IMG/VR virus record: IMGVR_UViG_3300035187_001397
Span: 1-20,448 of that record
Direction: 5' to 3' (one strand)
Length of the DNA: 20,448 nucleotides
From: a virus
Both the position numbers and the translations under genes were made by a program. Numbering within the stretch: the first letter of the stretch is position 1; the number at the start of each line of letters is the position of its first letter. This document shows positions 1,159 through 20,448 of the stretch, one piece after another. Under the pieces are notes generated by a model. It had not been told where the DNA came from, ran no database searches, and saw only the letters and a program-made list of their open reading frames with translations.

Positions 1159-1345
1159 CAACGCACAGCGTGTCTTGGCGGCCCTCCAGCGCACCACCAG
1201 CGCACGCCGCGTTGACCTGATGCACATCTGCCACATGACCCGTGGCGAGGTGCTGGAGGCCTGCGAGGAGCTGATGCGGGCGCGGCTGGTGCGATCCATC
1301 AATGGCGGGGCGAGATACGCCACGCGGGAGAGGGCGCAGGCGTGA
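1151..1345 (+). CDS. Small winged-helix-like protein
   Basis: A 64-residue protein (MTDNAQRVLAALQRTT...) starts in an ATGA overlap with the methyltransferase stop and ends in a GTGA overlap with the primase-helicase start. The pattern looks like a compact winged helix-turn-helix: helix 1 around VLAALQ, a recognition-like helix TRGEVLEACEELMRARLV (about 30-47), then a wing SINGGARYATRE. It may be a small DNA-binding accessory factor for replication or gene control. The fold is judged by eye and the function is unknown. Confidence 0.65.
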   Translation: MTDNAQRVLAALQRTTSARRVDLMHICHMTRGEVLEACEELMRARLVRSINGGARYATRERAQA

Positions 1346-3432
1346 CCGAAGTCGCCGACCTGTTCGCGGCCGTCAAGGCCGACATGCTCGCGCACTCCGA
1401 GGAGTGGTGCCGATCGCTGTTCCCTGCCGGCCGCCGCGTCGGGCATGAGTGGTGCGTTGGCAGCTTGCGCGGCGAACCGGGGATGTCGCTCAAGATCAGC
1501 CTGCGCAAGGGCGTCTGGAAGGACTTTGCGACCGGCGACGGCGGCAACGACCTTATCAGCCTCTACGCAGCGCAGGGCGGATTGAGCCAGGGCGCAGCGC
1601 TTGAGCAGATCACCGGCCAGCCGTTGCACGTTCGCAGCAACGTCGTCATCCGCTCCACCCGACCACGCGCGCCGGCATCCGCCATCGTCCCGTCGATGGA
1701 GCACACCGAGTACGGCCTGCCGTCGCACTCTTGGGTCTACGCAGACACCGATGGCGTGGTGCTCGGTTACGTCGCCCGCTACGACATCCCCGGCAAGCGA
1801 AAGCAGTTCGTGCCGTGGACGTGGAGCGACGAGCGCGGCAGGTACGTTGCCAAAGGATTCGAATCTCCGCGCCCGCTGTACGGCCTGCACGATCTCGCAG
1901 CCAGACCCGAAGCCCGCGTGCTGGTGGTCGAGGGCGAGAAGGCCGCAGACGCCGCCAGAAGGCTCGCGCCGGACATGGTGGCAGTGACATGGCCGGGCGG
2001 CGCGCAAAGCGTGCTCACGGCCGACTGGGGTGCCATTGCGGGGCGATCCGTCGTGCTGTGGCCGGATGCCGACGAACCCGGCGCGGTTGCGATGGACAAG
2101 TTGGCCGGCGCGCTGGCCGAGATCAAGTGCTCCGTCTCGCGCATCAGCACCGAGGGCTATGCGGGCGGATGGGATGCGGCGGATTCAGGGTTTACGCCGG
2201 ATGCGTTCCGCGAGTGGATGCAGGATCGAGCTGAAGACCTGACCGCAGCCACGAAGGCAGAGGAGCAGTTCGCGCCGCTGTGGTTCGACCTGCCTGACGA
2301 TGCCGACATCCCGCAGCGCGAATTCCTTGGCGGGAACAAGTCCTATCCCGTGGGCGTCGCTACCGCCATCGTGGCTGTGGGTGGCGCTGCGAAGTCCAGC
2401 CTGACCATTGTAGAACTGCTGGAACTGGCCACCGGACGCCCGCTCCTGCACAGCGCCGGCAGCGCAGACCGCTATCGGGTCTGGATGCTGAACCTGGAGG
2501 ACTCGCAGGACGAACTGCGCCGTCGCTTCACCGCAGCGTGCCGCCACTACGGCATCACGGCCGACGAGATTCGCGGCTGGATGGCCATCAACAGCGGCCT
2601 CGACTTCCCCGAGCCGTTCATCACCGCCGAGACCACGCGCGACGGCACCGTCGTTCACGCGCCGGTATTCGAGGCGCTGGAGCGGCACATCCGCGCGCAC
2701 AACATCCGCGTCCTGACCATCGACCCGTTCGTGTCATCCCACCGGGTGACCGAGAACGACAACATGGCCATCGACGCCATCGCCAAGCGCTGGGCCAAGC
2801 TCGCCCACGACTGCCAGATCGTTGTCGTCCTCGTCCACCACAGCCGCAAGACCAACGGCAACGAGGTCAGCGCAGAGGACGCGCGCGGCGGCGTCGCCCT
2901 GATCGGTGCCGTCCGGCTGGTGCGCGTGCTCAACCGCATGAGCAAGACCAAGCCCGCGCCCGGCATCGAGCCGGACGAGGCGTGGCGCTACTTCAAGAGC
3001 GTGGACGGCAAGGCAAACCTCGCGCCGCCCGACGAGCGCGGCACGTGGTATCGCCTCGAATCCGTCTCCCTCATGAACGGCCCCGGCCGAACCATCGGCG
3101 ACTCGATGGGCGTCGTCACGCCGTGGCAGTGGCCCGATCCCTTCGAGGATGTCAGCACCGGCGACCTCAATCAGGTCATCAGCCGCATGGGCATCGGTCG
3201 CTGGAAGCTGAACCAGCAATCGCCGGAGTGGGCTGGTCAGGTCGTGGCGCAGGTGCTCGACATCGACATCACCGACAAGGACGGCAAGGCCCAGGTCCGC
3301 AAGGTGCTGGAGACATGGATCAAGAAGGGTGCCCTTCGCGTCGTGATCGAGCCGGACGAGCGTCGCAAGAAGAAGGAATACGTCGTTCCCGGCATTCCGC
3401 TCCACTCGGAGTTTGGTGCCGATGATGAATAG
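1342..3432 (+). CDS. Phage primase-helicase (TOPRIM plus RepA/RecA-like ATPase)
   Basis: This 696-residue replication protein starts at GTG 1342, with GAGAGGG about 8 nt upstream and a GTGA overlap with the previous gene. Residues about 55-75 (GVWKDFATGDGGNDLISLYA) resemble the N-terminal domain of phage primases. A TOPRIM domain follows, with the acidic Glu197 in VVEGEK and the DxD pair at 242/244 in LWPDADEPG. A RecA-fold ATPase spans about 335-530, with a Walker A-like loop AVGGAAKSS (345-353), Walker B VLTIDPF (Asp461) and a VVVLVHHSRK strand like those of RepA-type hexameric helicases. The Walker A departs from consensus: Ala replaces the Gly normally found before the Lys. The C-terminus is helical and charged and may be a DNA-binding wing. 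It probably primes and unwinds phage DNA. The repeat cluster directly downstream may be its origin. Confidence 0.85.
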   Translation: MTEVADLFAAVKADMLAHSEEWCRSLFPAGRRVGHEWCVGSLRGEPGMSLKISLRKGVWKDFATGDGGNDLISLYAAQGGLSQGAALEQITGQPLHVRSNVVIRSTRPRAPASAIVPSMEHTEYGLPSHSWVYADTDGVVLGYVARYDIPGKRKQFVPWTWSDERGRYVAKGFESPRPLYGLHDLAARPEARVLVVEGEKAADAARRLAPDMVAVTWPGGAQSVLTADWGAIAGRSVVLWPDADEPGAVAMDKLAGALAEIKCSVSRISTEGYAGGWDAADSGFTPDAFREWMQDRAEDLTAATKAEEQFAPLWFDLPDDADIPQREFLGGNKSYPVGVATAIVAVGGAAKSSLTIVELLELATGRPLLHSAGSADRYRVWMLNLEDSQDELRRRFTAACRHYGITADEIRGWMAINSGLDFPEPFITAETTRDGTVVHAPVFEALERHIRAHNIRVLTIDPFVSSHRVTENDNMAIDAIAKRWAKLAHDCQIVVVLVHHSRKTNGNEVSAEDARGGVALIGAVRLVRVLNRMSKTKPAPGIEPDEAWRYFKSVDGKANLAPPDERGTWYRLESVSLMNGPGRTIGDSMGVVTPWQWPDPFEDVSTGDLNQVISRMGIGRWKLNQQSPEWAGQVVAQVLDIDITDKDGKAQVRKVLETWIKKGALRVVIEPDERRKKKEYVVPGIPLHSEFGADDE

Positions 3433-10961: not shown

Positions 10962-12378
10962 GTCGGGTGCCATCGAGCCGTTCGTGCTCAACCGCGCCCA
11001 GTTGTTCCTGCACAACATCGCCGAGCAGCAGAAGCGCGAGACAGGCCGCGTCAGGCTGGTGTGCGTGAAAGGCCGCCAGCAGGGAATCAGCACGTACTGG
11101 CAGGCGCGCACGTACCACGCCATCACGCACGCACGCGGGCGCGAGGCGTTCATCCTGACGCACGAGCAGGACGCGACAGACAACCTGTTTTCGATGACCG
11201 AGCGGTTCCACCGGCACGTCCACCCGTGGTTCAAGCCGCACACGAGCGCGGCAAACGCCAAGGCGCTGAAGTTCGACCAGCTCGACAGCGGCTACACGGT
11301 CGCCACGGCGGGCAGCAAGGGCGCTGGACGGTCCAAGACCATTCATCTGTTCCACGGCTCCGAGGTTGCCTACTGGCCGCACGCACAGACGCACATCGGC
11401 GGCGTGATGCAGGCGATTCCGGGCTACGACGACACCGAGGTCATGCTGGAAAGCACCGCCAACGGCCCCGGTGACGTGTTTCACGGCTTCTGGCAGGCCG
11501 CAATTGCCGGCCGCAGCGAGTATCGGGCGGTGTTCGTGCCCTGGTACTGGCAAGACGAGTACCAGCGCGACCCGAAAGACCTTGTGTTGAGCGAGGACGA
11601 CCGGCTCTACATGGCGGCGAATGACCTGACGCTGCCGCAGATGGCGTGGAGGGCGCACAAGATTACTGAATTCAACGGCGATGGCGGTCAGTTCAAGCGC
11701 GAATATCCGGCAAACCCGGACGAGGCGTTTGAGGCGAGCGCGGAACAGTCGTTCATCACGCCGGAATGGGTCCAGATTGCCCGCAGGGCGCGCGCAGAGC
11801 CCTTCGGGCCGCGCCTGCTTGGGGTAGACCCTGCCCGCTTTGGAGACGACCTGACGGCCATCGTGGAGCGCCAAGGGCGGGTCGTGCATGCGGTCGAGAC
11901 GGTGGCCAAGCGCGACACGATGGAGGTCGCCGGGATGGTGAAAAAGCGCCTCGACGCCGGAATCGACTTCGCGTTTATCGACGTGGTCGGGATCGGCGCA
12001 GGCGTGGTGGATCGGCTGCGGGAAATGGGCTACGGGACCAAGATCATCCCAGTCAACGCGGGCGAATCGGCGCTCGATGACGCCAAGTACCGCAACCTGC
12101 GTGCCGAGATGTACGGAAACCTGCGCGACTGGCTGCGCGAACAGCCGGCAGTGCTGCCAGACGACGATGCCGTGCAGGCCGACCTGTGCACGGTGCAATA
12201 CAAGTTCACGAGCAATTCGCAATACCAGCTCGAATCCAAAGACGACCTCAAGAAGCGGCTCAGCCGCTCACCGGACAGGGGAGACGCCATCGTGCTGACG
12301 TTCGCCCGCCCGGTTTCAGTCGCGTCCGTTGACGTTTCCGCATTTGAGCGACAAGGCAGAACCTCATGGATGGCATGA
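10864..12378 (+). CDS. Terminase large subunit (P22 gp2-like)
   Basis: A 504-residue packaging motor, matching P22 gp2 in length (499). The ATPase half has the deviant Walker A of terminases, GRQQGIST (70-77), Walker B IHLFHGSE with Glu167, and a C-motif ESTANG (196-201). The RNase H-fold nuclease half carries acidic residues Asp322 (LLGVDPARFGDD), Asp373 (FIDVVG) and Asp474 (DRGDAIVL), which cut concatemers into headfuls. It starts inside the small-subunit gene. An alternative ATG at 10912 (MADFPLYARTVL) would shorten both the protein and the overlap. The end overlaps the portal gene by 13 nt. Confidence 0.93.
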   Translation: MPLPNLSSQFELRKRLMADFPLYARTVLKIRTKSGAIEPFVLNRAQLFLHNIAEQQKRETGRVRLVCVKGRQQGISTYWQARTYHAITHARGREAFILTHEQDATDNLFSMTERFHRHVHPWFKPHTSAANAKALKFDQLDSGYTVATAGSKGAGRSKTIHLFHGSEVAYWPHAQTHIGGVMQAIPGYDDTEVMLESTANGPGDVFHGFWQAAIAGRSEYRAVFVPWYWQDEYQRDPKDLVLSEDDRLYMAANDLTLPQMAWRAHKITEFNGDGGQFKREYPANPDEAFEASAEQSFITPEWVQIARRARAEPFGPRLLGVDPARFGDDLTAIVERQGRVVHAVETVAKRDTMEVAGMVKKRLDAGIDFAFIDVVGIGAGVVDRLREMGYGTKIIPVNAGESALDDAKYRNLRAEMYGNLRDWLREQPAVLPDDDAVQADLCTVQYKFTSNSQYQLESKDDLKKRLSRSPDRGDAIVLTFARPVSVASVDVSAFERQGRTSWMA

Positions 12379-14456
12379 CCGCAGCGCCAGCCATGGGCGA
12401 GCAGGACGACGCGCGCGCCGAGGAACTGCGCAAGTTGCACTCCATTGCCATGAAGCGGTGGAAGCTGTGCGACGACTTCGAGCGCCCCGACCGACTGCTG
12501 GCTGCAGAGGACATGCGGTTTGCTGCCGGCGGCGAGGGCCAGTGGCCGCCCGAGGTGGTCGAGGAGCGCCGCAAGACCGGCCGCCCGATGCTGACCATCA
12601 ACCGGCTGGCTGGCCCGATCAAGCAGGTCATCAACGACGCACGGCAGAACAAGCCCGGCATCAAGGTCATCCCGGCCGGCATGGAAGACGTTGAGGCCGA
12701 GAAGAAGGCCAAGAAGAAGGCCGAGATTTACGAGGGCATCGTTCGCCAGATCGAGTCCACGAGCCGCGCCCAGAACGTCTACATGCCGGCATACGAACTG
12801 GTCGTGCGTGGCGGCTTCCGTGGCTCGTGGCGCGTCACCACGCGCTATTGCGATGACGAGACGTTCGACCAGGAGATCGCCATCGAGCCGATCCTGTCGC
12901 CGTTTGCGGTCTATCGCGACCCGGACAGCAAGCAGGTCGATCACGCCGACGATCAGTTTTGCTTCGTGTGCGAAGACGTGTCGAAGGAGCGTTTCGAGGA
13001 GCTGTACCCGGACGAGTCGGAATCGTCGTGGGATACCAGCAACGAGCGCGTGCTGCTGGACGGATGGAAGACCATCGACACGATCCGGCTGGCCGAATAC
13101 TGGTACTACGACGAGTCCGAGCAATCCACGATCTCGATCCTTGAGAGCGGCGAGATCGTTGAGGGCGGCGAGGTAGGGCAGCAGTACCAATATCCGCCCG
13201 ACCACGAGCAGTTTCCGGGCGCGGTGGTGGCCATTGCGCAGACGCGCACGATCAAGCGCAAGCGCGTCATGCGCGCGCTGCTGAACGGCGCGAAGGTGCT
13301 GGAAGGCCCGCACGAGTTCCCCGGCAAGATGATCCCTATCGTGTCGGTCGAAGGGCCGAAGCAGTGGGTAGGCGATCAGGTGCGCCACTGGTCGCTGATC
13401 CGCGACGCAAAGGGGCCGCAGCAAAATTACAACTTCTGGCAGAGCGCCATCGCAGAGAAGATCGCGCTTGCACCCAAGCAGCCGTTCATCGCCACGCCCA
13501 AGCAGGTCGAAGGGCAGATGACGGCATGGGCAAACGCCAACCGCTCGACGGCGGGCGTGCTGCTCTACAACCCGGACCCGCAGGCACCGGGCGCACCGCA
13601 GCGCCAGCAGCCGGCGTCGCTGAATTCGGCCGAGATGTCGCAGGCCGCGCAGGCCATTGACGACATCAAGTCAACGACGGGCATTTTCGACCGTTCGCTG
13701 GGCAACCAGTCAAACGAGAAGTCAGGCCGCGCAATCCTGGCCGTGCAGGCGCAGGGCGACAACGCGACCTACGACTTCCCCGACCTGCTGGCATCGGCAA
13801 TCGCCTACTGCGGGCGCGTGATCGTCGGGCTGATTCCCATCGTGATGCGCAACCGGCGCGTCATTCGCACACTGGCCGAGGACAACACGCCGCAGAGCTA
13901 CGTGGTCAACGACGGCACGCCAGAGACGGACATCGTTGAAGGCAAGTACGAGGTGCAGGTCACCGTCGGCCCCAGCTACGCCACCAAGCGTATGGAGATG
14001 GCCGAGAAGACCATCGCGCTCGCGCAGGCCGTGCCGCAGATCGGTGCCGTAGGTGCCGACCTGATCGTGCGCGCGCAGGACATTCCGGGCAGCGACGAGT
14101 TGGCGGACAGGCTCAAGAAGACGCTCCCGCCCGGACTGGCAAAGAACGAGGAAGGGCAGGAGGAGCAGCCGGCCCCGCCGCCCCCGCCCGACCCGGAACT
14201 GCTCATCAAGATGCGGACGGCAAAGGCCGACATCGAGCTGAAGGAGTCGCAGCGCGAGAAGGTCGATGCCGAGCGCGAAGGCGTGCAACTGCAGAACCAG
14301 ATGCTCGCAGCGCAACTCGCGCCGGACATGGCTGGCCTGATCCAGCAACTCGTCCGGCAGACAATCGCCGAGATGCTGCAGGGCGAGCAGGAAGCGCCGG
14401 AGCAGATGGAGCAGCCAGAACAACCGCCACCCGAACAGGGAGGCATGCAGATGTAG
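12366..14456 (+). CDS. Portal protein (P22 gp1-like)
   Basis: A 696-residue protein of the P22 portal family (P22 gp1 has 725). It forms the dodecameric ring at one head vertex through which DNA enters and leaves, and nucleates head assembly. Typical sequence features are the N-terminal RRKTGRPMLTINRLAGPIKQ, the middle SPFAVYRDPDSKQVDHADD, and FPGKMIPIVSVEGPKQWVGD followed by SLIRDAKGPQQNYNFWQS. The C-terminus is a Gln/Glu/Pro-rich helical tail, consistent with the barrel of P22 portals but shorter. It overlaps the large-terminase gene by 13 nt in another frame. An intrinsic terminator follows directly. Confidence 0.93.
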   Translation: MDGMTAAPAMGEQDDARAEELRKLHSIAMKRWKLCDDFERPDRLLAAEDMRFAAGGEGQWPPEVVEERRKTGRPMLTINRLAGPIKQVINDARQNKPGIKVIPAGMEDVEAEKKAKKKAEIYEGIVRQIESTSRAQNVYMPAYELVVRGGFRGSWRVTTRYCDDETFDQEIAIEPILSPFAVYRDPDSKQVDHADDQFCFVCEDVSKERFEELYPDESESSWDTSNERVLLDGWKTIDTIRLAEYWYYDESEQSTISILESGEIVEGGEVGQQYQYPPDHEQFPGAVVAIAQTRTIKRKRVMRALLNGAKVLEGPHEFPGKMIPIVSVEGPKQWVGDQVRHWSLIRDAKGPQQNYNFWQSAIAEKIALAPKQPFIATPKQVEGQMTAWANANRSTAGVLLYNPDPQAPGAPQRQQPASLNSAEMSQAAQAIDDIKSTTGIFDRSLGNQSNEKSGRAILAVQAQGDNATYDFPDLLASAIAYCGRVIVGLIPIVMRNRRVIRTLAEDNTPQSYVVNDGTPETDIVEGKYEVQVTVGPSYATKRMEMAEKTIALAQAVPQIGAVGADLIVRAQDIPGSDELADRLKKTLPPGLAKNEEGQEEQPAPPPPPDPELLIKMRTAKADIELKESQREKVDAEREGVQLQNQMLAAQLAPDMAGLIQQLVRQTIAEMLQGEQEAPEQMEQPEQPPPEQGGMQM

Positions 14457-14536: not shown

Positions 14537-15340
14537 ATGGCAGATGAGGAACTGGGCACCGAGCAGCCCGAACAGCTCGCGAATGACGCCAGTGTTGAGC
14601 CGGAATCGTCACCCGGCGAAGTCGATGAGAGCAGCGAAACCAGTGCAGAGCCGGAAGGCTCACCGAAGAAGACTCCCTGGTTCCAGAAGCGCATCGATGA
14701 AGTAACCGCAGAGAAGTGGGACCTGAAGCGGCAGAACGAGCAACTGTTGGCGCTGCTACAGCAGGGCCAGCAGAGGCAGCCGGAGCCGACGCCCGCACCG
14801 ACCGGAAAGCCCGAACTTGAGTCGTTCTCTTCTTTCGAGGAGTACACCGAGGCGCTGGCCGACTGGAAGGTCGAGCAGAAGTTCGCGGAGATCGAGCAAC
14901 GCAGGAATGCCGAGACCGCCGCGCAAGCGGCAGCACGGCAGGAAGCGGAGTTCGCCCAACGCGTCCGGCAGGCAATCGCCGTTCAGCCCGAGATCGAACG
15001 CATCGTCAATGACCCGTCGCTGCCTGTATCGCAGGCGATGGCAGAGGTCATCCGTGCCGCCGAGAACGGGCCGCAGATGCTCGCCGCACTCGATGCCAAC
15101 CGCGAACAGGCGGCACGCATCTACGCCATGTCCCCACAACTCGCGGCCTTCGAACTAGGCCGGCTCGCAGCAGGCATCCAGCCGCCGCAGCCACGACGTG
15201 TAACCGTGCCACCCAAGCCCATCAACACCCTGGGCGGTGGTGCATCCCCGACGCCGTTTGACCCATCGACCATCACGGATGGCGATGAGTACAAGCGATG
15301 GCGGGAAGCTGACATGAAGGCGAAACGCAATGCCCAATAG
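14537..15340 (+). CDS. Scaffolding protein (P22 gp8-like)
   Basis: A 267-residue, highly charged, helical protein (P22 gp8 has 303). The N-terminus is acidic and disordered (Glu, Ser, Pro rich). A long helical region with coiled-coil character follows (KRIDEVTAEKWDLKRQNEQ; FAEIEQRRNAETAAQAAARQ). The basic C-terminus (EADMKAKRNAQ) matches the helix-loop-helix coat-binding end of P22 scaffold in charge and position. It helps coat subunits build a procapsid of correct size and then leaves. It lies between portal and coat, as in P22, and overlaps the coat gene by 11 nt. Confidence 0.85.
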   Translation: MADEELGTEQPEQLANDASVEPESSPGEVDESSETSAEPEGSPKKTPWFQKRIDEVTAEKWDLKRQNEQLLALLQQGQQRQPEPTPAPTGKPELESFSSFEEYTEALADWKVEQKFAEIEQRRNAETAAQAAARQEAEFAQRVRQAIAVQPEIERIVNDPSLPVSQAMAEVIRAAENGPQMLAALDANREQAARIYAMSPQLAAFELGRLAAGIQPPQPRRVTVPPKPINTLGGGASPTPFDPSTITDGDEYKRWREADMKAKRNAQ

Positions 15341-16601
15341 GCAACTTACCCCGCTGATGATCACCAACGAAGCACTCGCCGTGCTTCATGGCGAACTGTC
15401 GTTCCTCAAGAACGTCAACCGTCAGTACGACAACCGTTTCGCGCAGTCCGGCGCGAAGATCGGCCAGACCCTCAACATCCGCATGCCGCCGAAGTACAAG
15501 ACCCGCACGGGTACGACCTTCAGCGGGCAAGACCACTACGAGCGCAGCACGCCGCTCGCGGTGACCTCGCAGATCGGCATCGACCTGTCGTTCACCTCGG
15601 TCGAGATGACGATGGAACTCGACGGGCTGCGTGCGTTCCTCAAGCCGGCGATGGCGCAACTGGCGGCGGATATCGAGTTCGACTGTCTCTCGAAGGCAAA
15701 GAACCTGATCTCCAACTACAACGGCACGACCACGACCAGCGGTCAGCTCACGTTCAAGCAGTTCGACGAGATGGGGGCCATCCTGACCCGCAACCTCGCC
15801 GGACGAACCGACCGTGTTGCGCTGCTGGCACCCGGCTCGCGGGTCGAGTTCAACGATGCGACGAAGGGCCTGTTCCAGGCCAGTCAGAACATCAGCGAAC
15901 AATACCGCGAGGGCATGCTTGGCCGGACCAGCGGCTTCGACGTGTTTGAGAACACGTTCCTGCCGACGCACACGACCGGCACGCTTGCGGGCACGCCGCT
16001 GCTGACCGGCGCAACGCTGGGCCTGACGACCACGTCGAACGAGTGGACGTCCACGACCATCCTGCAGATCGACGGCGCAACCTCGGCCACCACGCTGCTC
16101 GCGGGTGACATCATCACCCTCGGCGCGGCCGGCGGCACGGGCGTCTACGATGTCCATCCGGAGACCAAGGACCGCACCAGCACGCTGAAGCGGTTCGTGG
16201 TGCAGTCGTCCGTCACTCTGACCACGTCGGCCAACGCCTACGCGGTCACCGTGCGGCCGGCGCTGATCCACGGTGCGGGCAACGCCTACCGCAACTGTTC
16301 GCTGAACGGCACCACCAGCACGGACAACGTGACGGTGACGCTGATCGGCAACACGGGGACGACCTACGGGCAAAACATCGCATTCCACAAGGATGCGTTC
16401 GTGTTTGCCACGGCCGACCTTGTGGACGTGTCGCAGTACGGCGCTTATGGTGCTCGGCAGTCGATGGACGGCATTTCGATGCGGATGGTCCAGCAGTACG
16501 ATGTGGCCAGCGACACCGTACCGTGTCGGTTCGACGTGCTGTACGGCTTCGGCCCGCTCTACCAGGAGCTGGCCGTGCGCCACTGGTACACGTCGCCGTA
16601 A
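15330..16601 (+). CDS. Major coat protein (P22 gp5-like, HK97 fold)
   Basis: A 423-residue protein of the P22 coat family (P22 gp5 has 430). The N-terminus (MPNRQLTPLMITNEALAVLH) and the following NRQYDNRFAQSGAKIGQTLN match the N-arm and E-loop region of that family. A beta-rich Thr-heavy insertion at about residues 225-330 is in the place of the I-domain. The C-terminus (LDVLYGFGPLYQELAVRHW, quoted approximately from FDVLYGFGP...) is typical too. It forms the T=7 shell. AAGGCG lies 7 nt before the ATG. A strong terminator follows the stop codon. Confidence 0.92.
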   Translation: MPNRQLTPLMITNEALAVLHGELSFLKNVNRQYDNRFAQSGAKIGQTLNIRMPPKYKTRTGTTFSGQDHYERSTPLAVTSQIGIDLSFTSVEMTMELDGLRAFLKPAMAQLAADIEFDCLSKAKNLISNYNGTTTTSGQLTFKQFDEMGAILTRNLAGRTDRVALLAPGSRVEFNDATKGLFQASQNISEQYREGMLGRTSGFDVFENTFLPTHTTGTLAGTPLLTGATLGLTTTSNEWTSTTILQIDGATSATTLLAGDIITLGAAGGTGVYDVHPETKDRTSTLKRFVVQSSVTLTTSANAYAVTVRPALIHGAGNAYRNCSLNGTTSTDNVTVTLIGNTGTTYGQNIAFHKDAFVFATADLVDVSQYGAYGARQSMDGISMRMVQQYDVASDTVPCRFDVLYGFGPLYQELAVRHWYTSP

Positions 16602-16608
16602 GCGATGG

Positions 16609-16649
16609 GCGAGCGGTCACCGCACGACGGGTGACCGCTCGCGTTTCTT
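16609..16649 (+). terminator. Strong terminator after the coat gene
   Basis: GCGAGCGGTCACC (16609-16621) and GGTGACCGCTCGC (16630-16642) form a perfect 13-bp stem with an 8-nt loop, followed by GTTTCTTC. It begins 8 nt after the coat stop and would end most coat transcripts here. Downstream genes then need read-through or their own promoter. Confidence 0.85.
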
Positions 16650-16668: not shown

Positions 16669-17490
16669 ATGCCGAAAGAGATTCGGAAGCTCGGAGCGCG
16701 ACACGAACTGAAGCAAGTCAATGCCAAGGTCTTCGTCGCCACGCCTGCCTACGATGGCCATGTGCTCGCCGACTACGCGATGTCGCTGGCGGACTCGGTC
16801 GTGGCAGCCGCTCAGTGCGATATCGGCGTCATGGCAAGCGTCATGGGCAACGGTGCGTTCATCGAGATCGCCCGCAACGTGTTCGTGAAGCAGTTCCTCG
16901 AAACGGACTGCTCGCATCTGTTCTTCATCGACGCGGACCTGAAGTGGGAGGCCCGCGCGTTCATCGGCCTGGTCAACGCCAACCGCCCCGTTTCGGCGGG
17001 CGCGTACCGCCGCCGGCAGGAGCCGGAAGACTACCCGCTGCACTACCTCGAAGACCCGGAAGAACCCGGCCTGTCGATCATCGAGGGCGGCTGGGTGCCC
17101 TGTGATCGCGTCGCCACCGGCTTCCTGTGCATCCGCCGCGACGTGGTCGAGGCAATGGCGGCAGAAGCGCCGCGATGGAGGATTCGCGAGAACGGCGACA
17201 TTCCTGCGCTGTTCTACACCAAGCTGACCGAGCAGACCTCGGAGACGGATTCCGACGCCAGGGGCTTCGTGGGCGAGGACTTCACGTGGTGCGACGACTA
17301 CATGAACAAGTTCCGCACCCGCTTCAACAACCAGCCGATCATGGTCTGGCCGGACTTCGACTTCGTCCACAACGGCTTCAAAGGCAACTGGCTGAAGTTC
17401 ATCAACAAGGAGGTCGCCGAGTACGAGGCGAAGCTGAAAGCTGAAGCCGAGGCGGAAGCTGCGGCCAGCGTCAGCGAGGTGGCGGCATGA
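16669..17490 (+). CDS. GT-A-like glycosyltransferase
   Basis: A 273-residue protein with the core of a GT-A fold: a first strand VFVATPAYDG (21-30), the metal and nucleotide-binding DxD in LFFIDADLKW (Asp88, Asp90), then GGWVPCDRVATGFLCIRRDV (140-159), an acidic GEDFTWCDDY (202-211) like the catalytic ED of family 2 enzymes, and a late His234 in FVHNG. It probably transfers a sugar from a nucleotide-sugar donor; the acceptor is unknown. The C-terminus ends in a Glu/Ala-rich helix (EAKLKAEAEAEAAAS). It follows the coat terminator and is ATGA-coupled to a methyltransferase. Related phage glycosyltransferases modify DNA, capsid or host surface, but nothing here decides which. Confidence 0.8.
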   Translation: MPKEIRKLGARHELKQVNAKVFVATPAYDGHVLADYAMSLADSVVAAAQCDIGVMASVMGNGAFIEIARNVFVKQFLETDCSHLFFIDADLKWEARAFIGLVNANRPVSAGAYRRRQEPEDYPLHYLEDPEEPGLSIIEGGWVPCDRVATGFLCIRRDVVEAMAAEAPRWRIRENGDIPALFYTKLTEQTSETDSDARGFVGEDFTWCDDYMNKFRTRFNNQPIMVWPDFDFVHNGFKGNWLKFINKEVAEYEAKLKAEAEAEAAASVSEVAA

Positions 17491-18083
17491 ACAACACATT
17501 CAGCCTCGTCGCGCCTACGGTGGACTTCGTGGAGGTGCCGTCGGAGGCAGTCGAACTGCTCATCGGCTGCGGCAACTCGCGCGAGAAGCGGCTCGACGCC
17601 AACCGCAGCAACATCTGGAAGAACGTCTACACGCTGGACATCGACCCGTCGTGCAACCCCGACGTGGTCTGGAACCTCGATGATCTCCCGCTGCCCTTCG
17701 AGGACGAGACGTTTGAGGAAATCCACGCCTACGAGGTGCTGGAGCACTGCGGAAAGCAGGGCGACTGGCGGTTCTTCTTCGCGCAGTTCGCGGAGTTCTG
17801 GCGCATCCTGAAACCCGGCGGCATGTTCTACGCCACGACGCCGTGCTGGGATGCGGTGTGGGCGTGGGGCGATCCTGGCCACACACGGGTCTTCACGCCG
17901 GGTACGCTGAACTTCCTGTCGCAGGATGCCTACAAGCGCGATGTCGGCAAGACGATGATGACCGACTATCGCGGCGTCTGGCCGCACGACTTCCAGATTG
18001 CCGGCGCGCAGGAGACGAACGGACAGTTCTGCTTCGTGCTGCGCAAGCCGGACCCGGCGACGGACGAAGCGCCTGCAGCGTGA
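17487..18083 (+). CDS. Class I SAM-dependent methyltransferase
   Basis: A 198-residue Rossmann methyltransferase. SAM-binding motif I is ELLIGCGNSREKR (23-35). The strand-2 acidic end is TLDIDPS (Asp51/Asp53). DLPLPFEDETFEEIHAYEVLEHCG (66-89, quoted in part) is the motif II/III region typical of Methyltransf_11-type enzymes. The later FWRILKPGGMFYATTP (104-119) is the post-motif strand. It is most like small-molecule or sugar methyltransferases rather than DNA methylases, as there is no NPPY or PCQ motif. It sits between the glycosyltransferase and radical SAM genes with ATGA and GTGA overlaps, so all three are probably made together and act on the same substrate. Confidence 0.85.
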   Translation: MNNTFSLVAPTVDFVEVPSEAVELLIGCGNSREKRLDANRSNIWKNVYTLDIDPSCNPDVVWNLDDLPLPFEDETFEEIHAYEVLEHCGKQGDWRFFFAQFAEFWRILKPGGMFYATTPCWDAVWAWGDPGHTRVFTPGTLNFLSQDAYKRDVGKTMMTDYRGVWPHDFQIAGAQETNGQFCFVLRKPDPATDEAPAA

Positions 18084-18904
18084 GCCTCGACAGCCTGCGC
18101 TTGCTGTATCTGGACCAACCCAACGAGGTGTCCATCGAGACGCTGTCGCGCTGCAACGCGGCCTGCAGCTTCTGCCCCTATCCAACGCTGGAGCGGATAG
18201 GGACGCAGATGCCGGACGAGATGATTGACCGGCTGATTGACGAGATGAGCGGCTGGCAACTGCCGTTCGCGTTCACGCCGTTCAAGGTCAACGAGCCGCT
18301 GCTGGACAAGCGGCTGTTCGACATCCTGTCGAAGGTCAACGAGCGCGTACCGCTTGCGAAGATTCGCATCTTCACCAATGGCGCACCGCTGACGCTGCGG
18401 AAGGCCGAGGAACTGAACAGCATCGACAACCTTGAGTTGTGGGTGTCGGTCCACGAACCTGACGCGGGCACCTACAAGTCAGTGCTGGGCATTGACCAGC
18501 GGCACGTCGTGGCCAACCTCGACGCGCTGCACAAGACCGACTTTCGGCACCCGGTACACATCCTGCGGGTCGGCACTGATGGCGCGGAGGAGTTCAGGGA
18601 CTGGGTCTGGGACCGCTGGCCGGAGTTCACGCCTGTCGTGGTCTGGAAGTCGTCATGGCTGGGCTACACCAGCCCGGATCGGCCGGAAATACCCGACGAG
18701 GCGTGCTCCCGCTGGTTCGAACTGTCGATCATGTCTACCGGCATCGTGTCGCTGTGCTGCATGGACGGCGAGGGCAAGTTCCCGATTGGGGACATCAACA
18801 AGCAGACGATGCTTGAGGTCTACAACTCTCCGGCGTGGCGCGAGCGCCGCGAGCTGATGTTGAGCCGGCGCAGCGTGCCGGTGTGCGAGTCGTGCAGCTA
18901 CTGA
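18080..18904 (+). CDS. Radical SAM enzyme with SPASM-like C-terminus
   Basis: A 274-residue protein starting at GTG 18080 in a GTGA overlap with the methyltransferase. The cluster-binding CX3CX2C motif is complete: Cys25, Cys29 and Cys32 in RCNAACSFCPYP. NEPLLDKRLF (71-80) and IRIFTNGAPL (95-104) are the usual second and third strand motifs. The C-terminal region has Cys209, Cys226-Cys227 (LCCMDGEG), then GDINKQTMLEVYNS and VCESCSY (Cys269, Cys272), resembling a short SPASM or twitch domain that holds an auxiliary iron-sulfur cluster. Such enzymes make radical changes to peptides, sugars or other small molecules. The substrate here is unknown. The first three genes after coat thus form an enzyme cassette within the head module. 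Confidence 0.85.
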   Translation: MSLDSLRLLYLDQPNEVSIETLSRCNAACSFCPYPTLERIGTQMPDEMIDRLIDEMSGWQLPFAFTPFKVNEPLLDKRLFDILSKVNERVPLAKIRIFTNGAPLTLRKAEELNSIDNLELWVSVHEPDAGTYKSVLGIDQRHVVANLDALHKTDFRHPVHILRVGTDGAEEFRDWVWDRWPEFTPVVVWKSSWLGYTSPDRPEIPDEACSRWFELSIMSTGIVSLCCMDGEGKFPIGDINKQTMLEVYNSPAWRERRELMLSRRSVPVCESCSY

Positions 18905-18913
18905 GGGTGACCA

Positions 18914-19327
18914 GTGTCCAACACGTACAACGAGATCGTCAGTGCGGCAATGCGCCGTCTTGGCCTGACGCAGGCAGGCGAAGCGCCGACGGGCGACGAG
19001 TACGGCATCGGCATCGAGGCGCTGAATGACCTCGTCTCCGGCTGGCGCATTCGCGGGCTGGAGATGTCCTACACCTCGGTTGAGTCGAGCGCAGGCGGCG
19101 ATGTCTCGCCGTTTGAGGATGAAGACCTCGATGCCGTCAAGGCGCTGCTGGCGATGCGGCTGGCCGAGGAGTACGGAAAGATGCCATCGCCGATGCTAGC
19201 TGCGGCGGCGTCAACGTACTGGAATGCGCTGTTCGGGAAATACGTGGTCGGCCCCGACATGGTGACGGACTCGGCGCTGTTGCCGCGCAACACGCCGGGA
19301 TCGTCCTGGCCTCGCAACTACACGTGA
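18914..19327 (+). CDS. Tail accessory factor (P22 gp4-like)
   Basis: A 137-residue helical protein starting at GTG 18914, 10 nt after the radical SAM stop, with GAGGGTG just upstream. Features such as YNEIVSAAMRRLGL at the N-terminus, IEALNDLVSGWRIRGLEM, and DLDAVKALLAMRLAEEYG match the P22 gp4 head-tail connector family (P22 gp4 has 166 residues). gp4 binds the portal after packaging and begins to close the head. Its order before a gp10-like gene supports the call. It overlaps the next gene by GTGA. Confidence 0.82.
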   Translation: MSNTYNEIVSAAMRRLGLTQAGEAPTGDEYGIGIEALNDLVSGWRIRGLEMSYTSVESSAGGDVSPFEDEDLDAVKALLAMRLAEEYGKMPSPMLAAAASTYWNALFGKYVVGPDMVTDSALLPRNTPGSSWPRNYT

Positions 19328-20448
19328 AGATTCAGATCGCGCTGAACAGCGCGCGCGGGCGCTCGACCACGTTGACGGCCGAAAGGCTGATCAACCTGTT
19401 CGCTGAGAAGGCCCCGGAGGGCGCTGAAAGCCCTGCCGTCACCCACGGCTGCCCCGGTCTCGTGACGCACGCCACGGCCGGCACAGGGCCTTGCAGAGGC
19501 ATGTGCATGGTCGGCAGCGACATGTACGTGGTCAACGGTGACAGCCTGTATCAGGTCACCTCGACCGGCGTGGTCGGCTCGGCGCTGGGCACCATTGCCG
19601 GCACCGAACTGGTTTCGATGGCAACGGATGGCGACATCCTTGTGATCGTGTCGAACCCGCTCGGCTACACCTACACGGTGAGCACGGCGACGTTCGCGCA
19701 GATCACCGACGTTGCCTACGGTGGCGCGCACTCGGTGATCTGGATGAATCAGACGTTCATCTTCGCCAACGACACCGAGCACTTTGTTGGCGCGACCGGC
19801 GGCCTGCTGCCGTTCGACCCGCTGCTGGCGGCGTCGGCTGAATACTCGCCCGACGGCATTGTCGGGCTGGCGAAGGACCACAACGAACTGCTGATCTACG
19901 GCGGCTTGACGCTGGAGTCGTGGCAGAACATTCAGGTGGCCAGCGCGACGGATTACCCGTTCGAAGCCATCAGCGGCGCGACCGGCGAGAAAGGGCTGGC
20001 CAGCCGCAGCGCGGTCGCCCAGATCGACAACACGACCGTCTGGCTTGACCAGAACGGCATCGTGCGCAGGCTGGCGGGCGGCTACGTGCCGCAGCGCATC
20101 AGCACCGAGGCCATCGAGCACCAGGTCGCCAGCGCGGACCTGACGACGGCAGAAATGCTGGTCTACATTCTCGAAGGCCACGAGTTCTTTGCGCTCAACA
20201 CCAACGTCGGCACGTTCGTCTACGACGCCAACACCAGCCTATGGCACGAGCGAGCCAGTTTTGGCCTTCCTCGCTGGAAGGCGCAGCGGTCGCTGTACAT
20301 CTGGGGCGACTGGTACGTCGGCAGCTTCTCGGACGGCACGATCTCCAGGCTCGACCTCGACGTGAACGACGAGAACGGCGACGACCTCGTGGCGACCGCC
20401 GTCTTCCCGCCGCTTGTGTTCGGCCGAGATCGGTTCACGCTCGATCAT
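19324..20448 (+). CDS. Packaged-DNA stabilization protein, tail hub (P22 gp10-like), 3' end missing
   Basis: An open frame of 375 codons starts at GTG 19324, overlapping the gp4-like stop, and runs off the right edge (P22 gp10 has 472 residues). Beta-propeller-like repeats with VVNGDSLYQVTSTG, VSMATDGDILVIVSNP, AGGYVPQRISTEAIEHQ and ENGIVR-type segments match the P22 gp10 family. Near the start, STTLTAERLINLFAEKAPEG is a family feature. The protein forms the hexameric hub below gp4 that holds the DNA in and carries the needle and tailspikes. I read every codon to the window end and found no stop. Confidence 0.85.
   Translation, partial: MKIQIALNSARGRSTTLTAERLINLFAEKAPEGAESPAVTHGCPGLVTHATAGTGPCRGMCMVGSDMYVVNGDSLYQVTSTGVVGSALGTIAGTELVSMATDGDILVIVSNPLGYTYTVSTATFAQITDVAYGGAHSVIWMNQTFIFANDTEHFVGATGGLLPFDPLLAASAEYSPDGIVGLAKDHNELLIYGGLTLESWQNIQVASATDYPFEAISGATGEKGLASRSAVAQIDNTTVWLDQNGIVRRLAGGYVPQRISTEAIEHQVASADLTTAEMLVYILEGHEFFALNTNVGTFVYDANTSLWHERASFGLPRWKAQRSLYIWGDWYVGSFSDGTISRLDLDVNDENGDDLVATAVFPPLVFGRDRFTLDH

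Follow-up and report, generated by a model that had tools for sequence, protein, structure and literature searches.

Phage capsid glycosylation is known from mycobacteriophages (Freeman et al. 2023, as cited in PMC11256854 and PMC12619734). According to these citing papers, Che8, Rita and their relatives encode glycosyltransferases (GTs), and the glycans are carried on the capsid or the tail-tube protein. In Maravista, however, the GT genes lie near the 3' end of the genome, whereas the GT gene described here follows the coat gene, and no radical SAM step is known to be reported for these phages. Two further viruses offer parallels. In STIV, A197 is a strong candidate for a coat glycosyltransferase, itself uncharacterised (PMC4187194). 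Like the GT described below, A197 (PDB 2c0n) has a GT-A fold and a DxD motif and is proposed to glycosylate the coat, but it belongs to an archaeal virus with an unrelated capsid. To our knowledge, it has no methyltransferase (MT) or radical SAM enzyme (rSAM) as a partner. In PBCV-1, A064R consists of GT, GT and methyltransferase domains and acts on the capsid glycan (PMC9614988). In that protein, as in the GT-MT fusions reported below, a viral GT and a class I methyltransferase are linked, and the methyltransferase caps a glycan of the capsid; PBCV-1 is an algal virus, however, its glycan is a multi-sugar N-glycan, and no radical SAM enzyme is reported.

The window, i.e., the whole stretch of DNA analysed here, comprises 20,448 bases and is a virus record in IMG/VR. 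Consecutive genes on its plus strand match head genes in Pfam and PHROG: a P22-type portal protein (12366..14456; PF16510, E = 7.1e-154), a scaffolding protein (14537..15340; phrog_8865, E = 1.5e-42), a P22-type major coat protein (15330..16601; PF11651, E = 1.8e-35; phrog_283, E = 1.3e-65), a gp4-like head-tail adaptor (18914..19327; phrog_637, E = 3.4e-15) and a gp10-like head-closure protein truncated by the window end (19324..20448; phrog_578, E = 2.6e-75). A previous sequence-only reading of this DNA had described an enzyme trio inserted between coat and gene 4. Indeed, the gap between the coat stop at 16601 and the gp4 start at 18914, which marks the downstream border of the cassette, is occupied by three plus-strand ORFs (16669-18904). 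The first encodes a GT-A glycosyltransferase of 273 aa (16669..17490; phrog_1574, E = 1.3e-17), the second a class I SAM methyltransferase of 198 aa (17487..18083; Methyltransf_11, E = 4.1e-7), and the third, which begins with GTG, a twitch-type radical SAM enzyme of 274 aa (18080..18904; Radical_SAM, E = 1.8e-10; SPASM, E = 5.6e-10). GT stop and MT start form an ATGA overlap, and MT stop and rSAM start a GTGA overlap, in agreement with the earlier description of one translationally linked unit. No further ORF was found in this interval. Elsewhere in the window, a DNA-methyltransferase-like gene (445-1155; phrog_1008, E = 1.2e-21) is followed by a primase/helicase-like gene (1342-3432). The cassette is read here, with a probability of roughly 55%, as a virion-glycosylation and glycan-tailoring module.

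Relatives of the locus were collected by IMG/VR searches with rSAM, GT and coat, and iterated HMMs served to annotate the loci. Dozens of contigs share the order coat-GT-MT-(rSAM)-gp4-gp10, although their proteins have diverged to about 45-55% identity. Among the 80 nearest coats, 57 loci were readable through to a gp4 or gp10 match. Nearly half of the enzyme-bearing majority carries the complete trio and nearly all of the rest only the first two genes (25 GT-MT-rSAM, 25 GT-MT, 3 GT only, 4 none), so that GT is present in 53/57 and GT-MT in 50/57 loci; these counts come from the best 80 coats, found with a coat profile built from rSAM-bearing phages, and are biased toward GT/rSAM-bearing phages. 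On the coat tree, GT changes state once, MT three times and rSAM ten times, and the four enzyme-free loci form one clade. From these changes and the locus counts it follows that GT is a near-fixed core and MT nearly so, while rSAM is an optional extra with frequent gains or losses. Coat, GT, MT and rSAM distances are intercorrelated (Mantel r 0.45-0.74), and the three enzymes, each compared with three relatives, have dN/dS values from 0.04 to 0.28. Co-occurrence of the trio in related phages had been set beforehand as a check on the sequence-only reading, together with the retention of active-site residues in homologues, and both are observed. A chance or one-off insertion of the trio was rejected on the conserved order and the invariant active sites.

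The position behind MT behaves as an exchangeable slot. Loci without rSAM usually have gp4 as the next gene, but other genes can occupy the rSAM slot: a sulfotransferase in L079 (PF03567, E = 2.1e-11), a 202-aa protein in L175 that matches DUF6445 just under the family cut-off (E = 1.5e-4), and in L172 an ORF similar by eye to the L175 protein. The L175 and L172 genes appear oxygenase-like by inspection only. The sulfotransferase fits a glycan of varied tailoring. In L012, rSAM is found upstream of the scaffold gene instead. At its usual position, rSAM is shortened or split in L111 (a weak remnant) and in L054 and L056 (two pieces), through either ongoing decay or sequencing errors.

Several other features were observed around these loci. 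A conserved acidic protein of ~105-117 aa is encoded between GT and MT in L108 (2971-3303), L012 (3741-4094), L117 (4395-4730) and L101 (2126-2443); in such loci gp4, not rSAM, follows MT, and Pfam gave no match for the L108 copy. A GroES-like gene lies between coat and GT in L144 (3476-3742; Cpn10, E = 4.6e-15), and a gene similar to it by eye is found beside the cassette in L175 (8964-9428). Its product possibly has a role in coat folding. In L005/L062, L079, L082, L115, MW202674 and L195, several hundred bases interrupt the coat gene itself close to residue 30 or residue 100, which suggests introns or inteins.

Coat and cassette are separated by a terminator-like hairpin on the plus strand (16609..16642), in which 13 perfect pairs are followed by GTTTCTT. 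The 75-nt region around it has a folding energy of -36.8 kcal/mol (z = -3.4). Among the relatives, 52 of 94 coat-GT gaps contain a hairpin of this kind, compared with a mean of 0.8 and a maximum of 3 in dinucleotide shuffles. Hence, expression of the enzymes below coat level is likely to be a general feature of these loci. This separating hairpin, the GT-MT core and the optional nature of rSAM are absent from the sequence-only reading.

Moreover, the same enzymes are found in phages whose capsids belong to other families. A second group (L058, L053, L045, L047; L037, where MT precedes rSAM; L028 and L052, partly covered) has the gene order terL, rSAM, MT, portal, scaffold, MCP, a ~100-aa protein, GT and adaptor, and the MCP is of the SU10 type (PF17236, E = 1.1e-82 in L058). 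The MCP of a third group matches phrog_9953, with a GT-MT fusion encoded two small genes further on. Seven third-group contigs carry this fusion, and L051 alone adds an rSAM, one further small gene later. The tested GTs of all three capsid groups match phrog_1574, and in each group a phage-encoded GT is linked to head genes. The complete podovirus genome MW202691 encodes, between coat and gp4, a separate fusion in which GT is joined to a methyltransferase-like domain (with weak matches in Pfam), and MW202573 has MT and GT at the same place. These two metagenomic complete genomes are the closest cases in the phage collection, among whose named isolates the trio was not found. The isolates with related coats (PBR31, PAE2, DSL-LC05, P26218, phiAX1 and BA3) have no annotated GT, MT or rSAM after the coat; several genes there are 'hypothetical'.

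This distribution bears on the target of the enzymes, which the earlier reading had sought on the virion or, after lysogeny, on the host surface. Temperate phages use GTs to modify the surface of their hosts. The enzymes described here could likewise alter LPS, capsule or another glycan during infection or lysogeny and cause superinfection exclusion or a serotype change; such activity of temperate-phage GTs is documented (PMC12619734), and GtrB is a weak fold match of the GT. The genes, however, belong to the late head block, and in all three groups, whose capsid families differ, they keep close to the major capsid gene; neither a flippase nor a membrane partner is encoded between coat and gp4 in the window, and no nucleotide-sugar synthesis genes of the families PF00483 and PF01370 were found in 15 records. 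A role at the host surface is decidedly unlikely on this evidence, and the virion half of the earlier claim stands as the best reading.

The GT retains its active-site residues: D88, D90, E203, D204 and H234 are invariant among 78 homologues, with D88-x-D90 forming the DxD metal site. Pfam gave no match for the GT of the window, and a PDB sequence search with its profile returned nothing usable. Its structure model (pLDDT 94) has a GT-A fold. In Foldseek, STIV A197 ranks first (E = 3.9e-8, 15% identity), followed by LH3 and COLGALT1, mimivirus R699, TarP and polypeptide GalNAc-transferases, with the PBCV-1 capsid GT 2p72 at a lower rank; TM-scores are moderate, about 0.4-0.6, and donor and acceptor are not readable from such scores. 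As for MT, its matches are Methyltransf_11 and, from a PDB sequence search with its profile, only a weak O-methyltransferase.

Some phage GTs glycosylate DNA, according to work cited in PMC12619734, and the set might hypermodify the phage genome with glycosylated, methylated or radical-modified bases as a protection against restriction. The GT part of the L051 fusion weakly matches TET-associated GTs (E = 4.6e-4), which agrees with this idea. Nevertheless, the genes are located with the head and not the replication functions, the solved structures that match the GT best are virion- and protein-linked GTs, and no thymidylate-synthase homologue (Thymidylat_synt) was detected in 15 records (control working; most records may be fragments). 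DNA hypermodification is thus considered very unlikely. Tet_JBP had no match in the 15 records either, where its positive control was also silent.

The rSAM contains a CxxxCxxC motif (C25/C29/C32) and four further cysteines (C209, C226, C269 and C272), all invariant in 50 homologues. In the twitch enzyme BtrN, four cysteines ligate the auxiliary cluster (PMC6231123), and three of the four further rSAM cysteines align directly with cysteines of BtrN. The C-terminus of rSAM is hence a one-cluster 'twitch' with four cysteine ligands, the cluster itself being predicted from the sequence. A profile search of PDB sequences ranked BtrN first (E = 5.5e-16) and EpeE/YydG second (8e-9). With the AlphaFold model (pLDDT 93), Foldseek also placed BtrN first (E = 4.8e-12, TM 0.69/0.76) and DesII next, then SuiB and anSME; MoaA was matched as well, and the matches to BtrN, DesII, SuiB and MoaA agree with a partial SAM-binding barrel. 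Identity to BtrN and DesII in the fold alignments is 15-18%. The likeness to these two enzymes is one of fold and extends, for BtrN, to sequence and to the four-cysteine pattern; both belong to antibiotic pathways (butirosin for BtrN) and act on soluble sugars. Function within the radical SAM group is hard to infer from similarity (PMC6231123), and the reaction assigned to rSAM is therefore treated as a lead only. A second rSAM lineage was sought in phage records, and distant matches only were found there. Bacterial MAGs contain rSAM homologues (L186 755-1903, L185 1299-2444, L187 657-1808, L188 9683-10828), each with an N-terminal extension of ~100 residues that is TPR-like by eye, and the L186 homologue has as neighbours a methyltransferase gene and a gene for a TPR-repeat-rich protein, one on either side.

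The emphasis of the sequence-only reading on SPASM-type peptide modification is not supported in view of the twitch architecture and the carbohydrate-acting nearest matches, BtrN and DesII. A full SPASM domain has a second auxiliary cluster motif, CX2CX5CX3C and a further C (PMC6231123). The rSAM terminates two residues past C272, and therefore this motif cannot be present, so the protein was rejected as a full SPASM peptide maturase. Peptide chemistry could take another form: rSAM, perhaps with MT, might modify side chains or the backbone of virion proteins in the manner of a RiPP maturase, while GT would act either independently or on the residue so modified. The second rank of the peptide epimerase EpeE/YydG, the strong fold matches to SuiB and anSME and the SPASM match in Pfam would agree with such a role. 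BtrN is the best match by both sequence and fold, however, and DesII is next by fold. The barrel of the model begins at ~residue 16, so that no N-terminal peptide-recognition (RRE) domain is found, a criterion to be read with the knowledge that some SPASM enzymes also lack it. Furthermore, the coat-gp4 interval of the window leaves no space for an additional gene encoding a precursor peptide, and the exchange partner of rSAM in L079 is a sulfotransferase. Modification of virion peptides is accordingly regarded as unlikely.

The substrate of BtrN is a soluble aminocyclitol, and that of DesII is a sugar nucleotide. By the same token, the three enzymes might produce or convert a small soluble metabolite and so serve an auxiliary metabolic role independent of the virion. 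Only GT and MT are constant, however, no NDP-sugar synthesis was found in the 15 records, and placement near the major capsid gene, which is kept across capsid families, would not be explained. Of the alternatives considered, this one has the slimmest chance.

In the virion module, GT would take a sugar from a nucleotide-sugar of the host and attach it to one of the head proteins, of which the coat encoded just upstream is the likeliest. MT would then methylate, and so cap, the added sugar. The twitch rSAM, where present, may oxidise the sugar; by analogy with BtrN, a 5'-deoxyadenosyl radical would serve to convert an alcohol into a ketone, and the auxiliary cluster would accept the electron. 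The hairpin would hold the amounts of the enzymes low compared with that of coat, and the start-stop overlaps would couple the three. We infer the coat as acceptor, the identity of the sugar, the order of the steps and the rSAM reaction; any advantage, for instance in shielding, adsorption or stability, is equally putative. The nucleotide-sugar synthesis families PF00483 and PF01370 were not found in the 15 records (controls working; most records may be fragments), which fits host-supplied donors. When coats with and without GT are compared, T134 and S73-T74 track GT presence, but these residues are no more than candidates, since the coats without GT also stand apart in phylogeny and the signal is confounded by descent.

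The virion reading is favoured for several reasons. The GT sits behind the coat in 53/57 readable loci, with a single change of GT and three of MT on the coat tree, and the same enzymes lie in head blocks with SU10-type and phrog_9953 MCPs. GT and MT are fused in the seven contigs and in MW202691, and a sulfotransferase takes the slot in L079. The GT fold is nearest to A197 and then to protein-acting GTs, and rSAM is nearest to BtrN and DesII. Mycobacteriophage capsid glycans and PBCV-1 A064R provide precedents. The reading is weakened because peptide-acting EpeE, SuiB and anSME also match rSAM, although less well, and because the isolates looked at show no such cassette. The moderate TM-scores of the GT, the lack of a coat residue that stands out independently of descent and the bias of the locus sample also count against it.

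Capsid glycosylation in phages is already known, and the radical SAM step appears to be new. Searches of open-licence papers turned up no phage virion cassette with a radical SAM enzyme, and likewise none when the sulfotransferase was added. It is tentatively suggested, as a possibility well short of even odds, that the capsid glycan carries an oxidised sugar produced by a radical SAM dehydrogenase on a protein-bound glycan, which would be the first such virion step, encoded in an exchangeable slot.

If the virion reading is true, capsid glycosylation would be common in a large uncultured P22-like group and not a curiosity of mycobacteriophages, and a capsid glycan would be tailored by radical chemistry. 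The cassette would offer a compact three-gene system for testing the roles of capsid sugars in shielding, stability and adsorption. Finally, the exchangeable tailoring slot suggests selection for diversity of the virion glycan.
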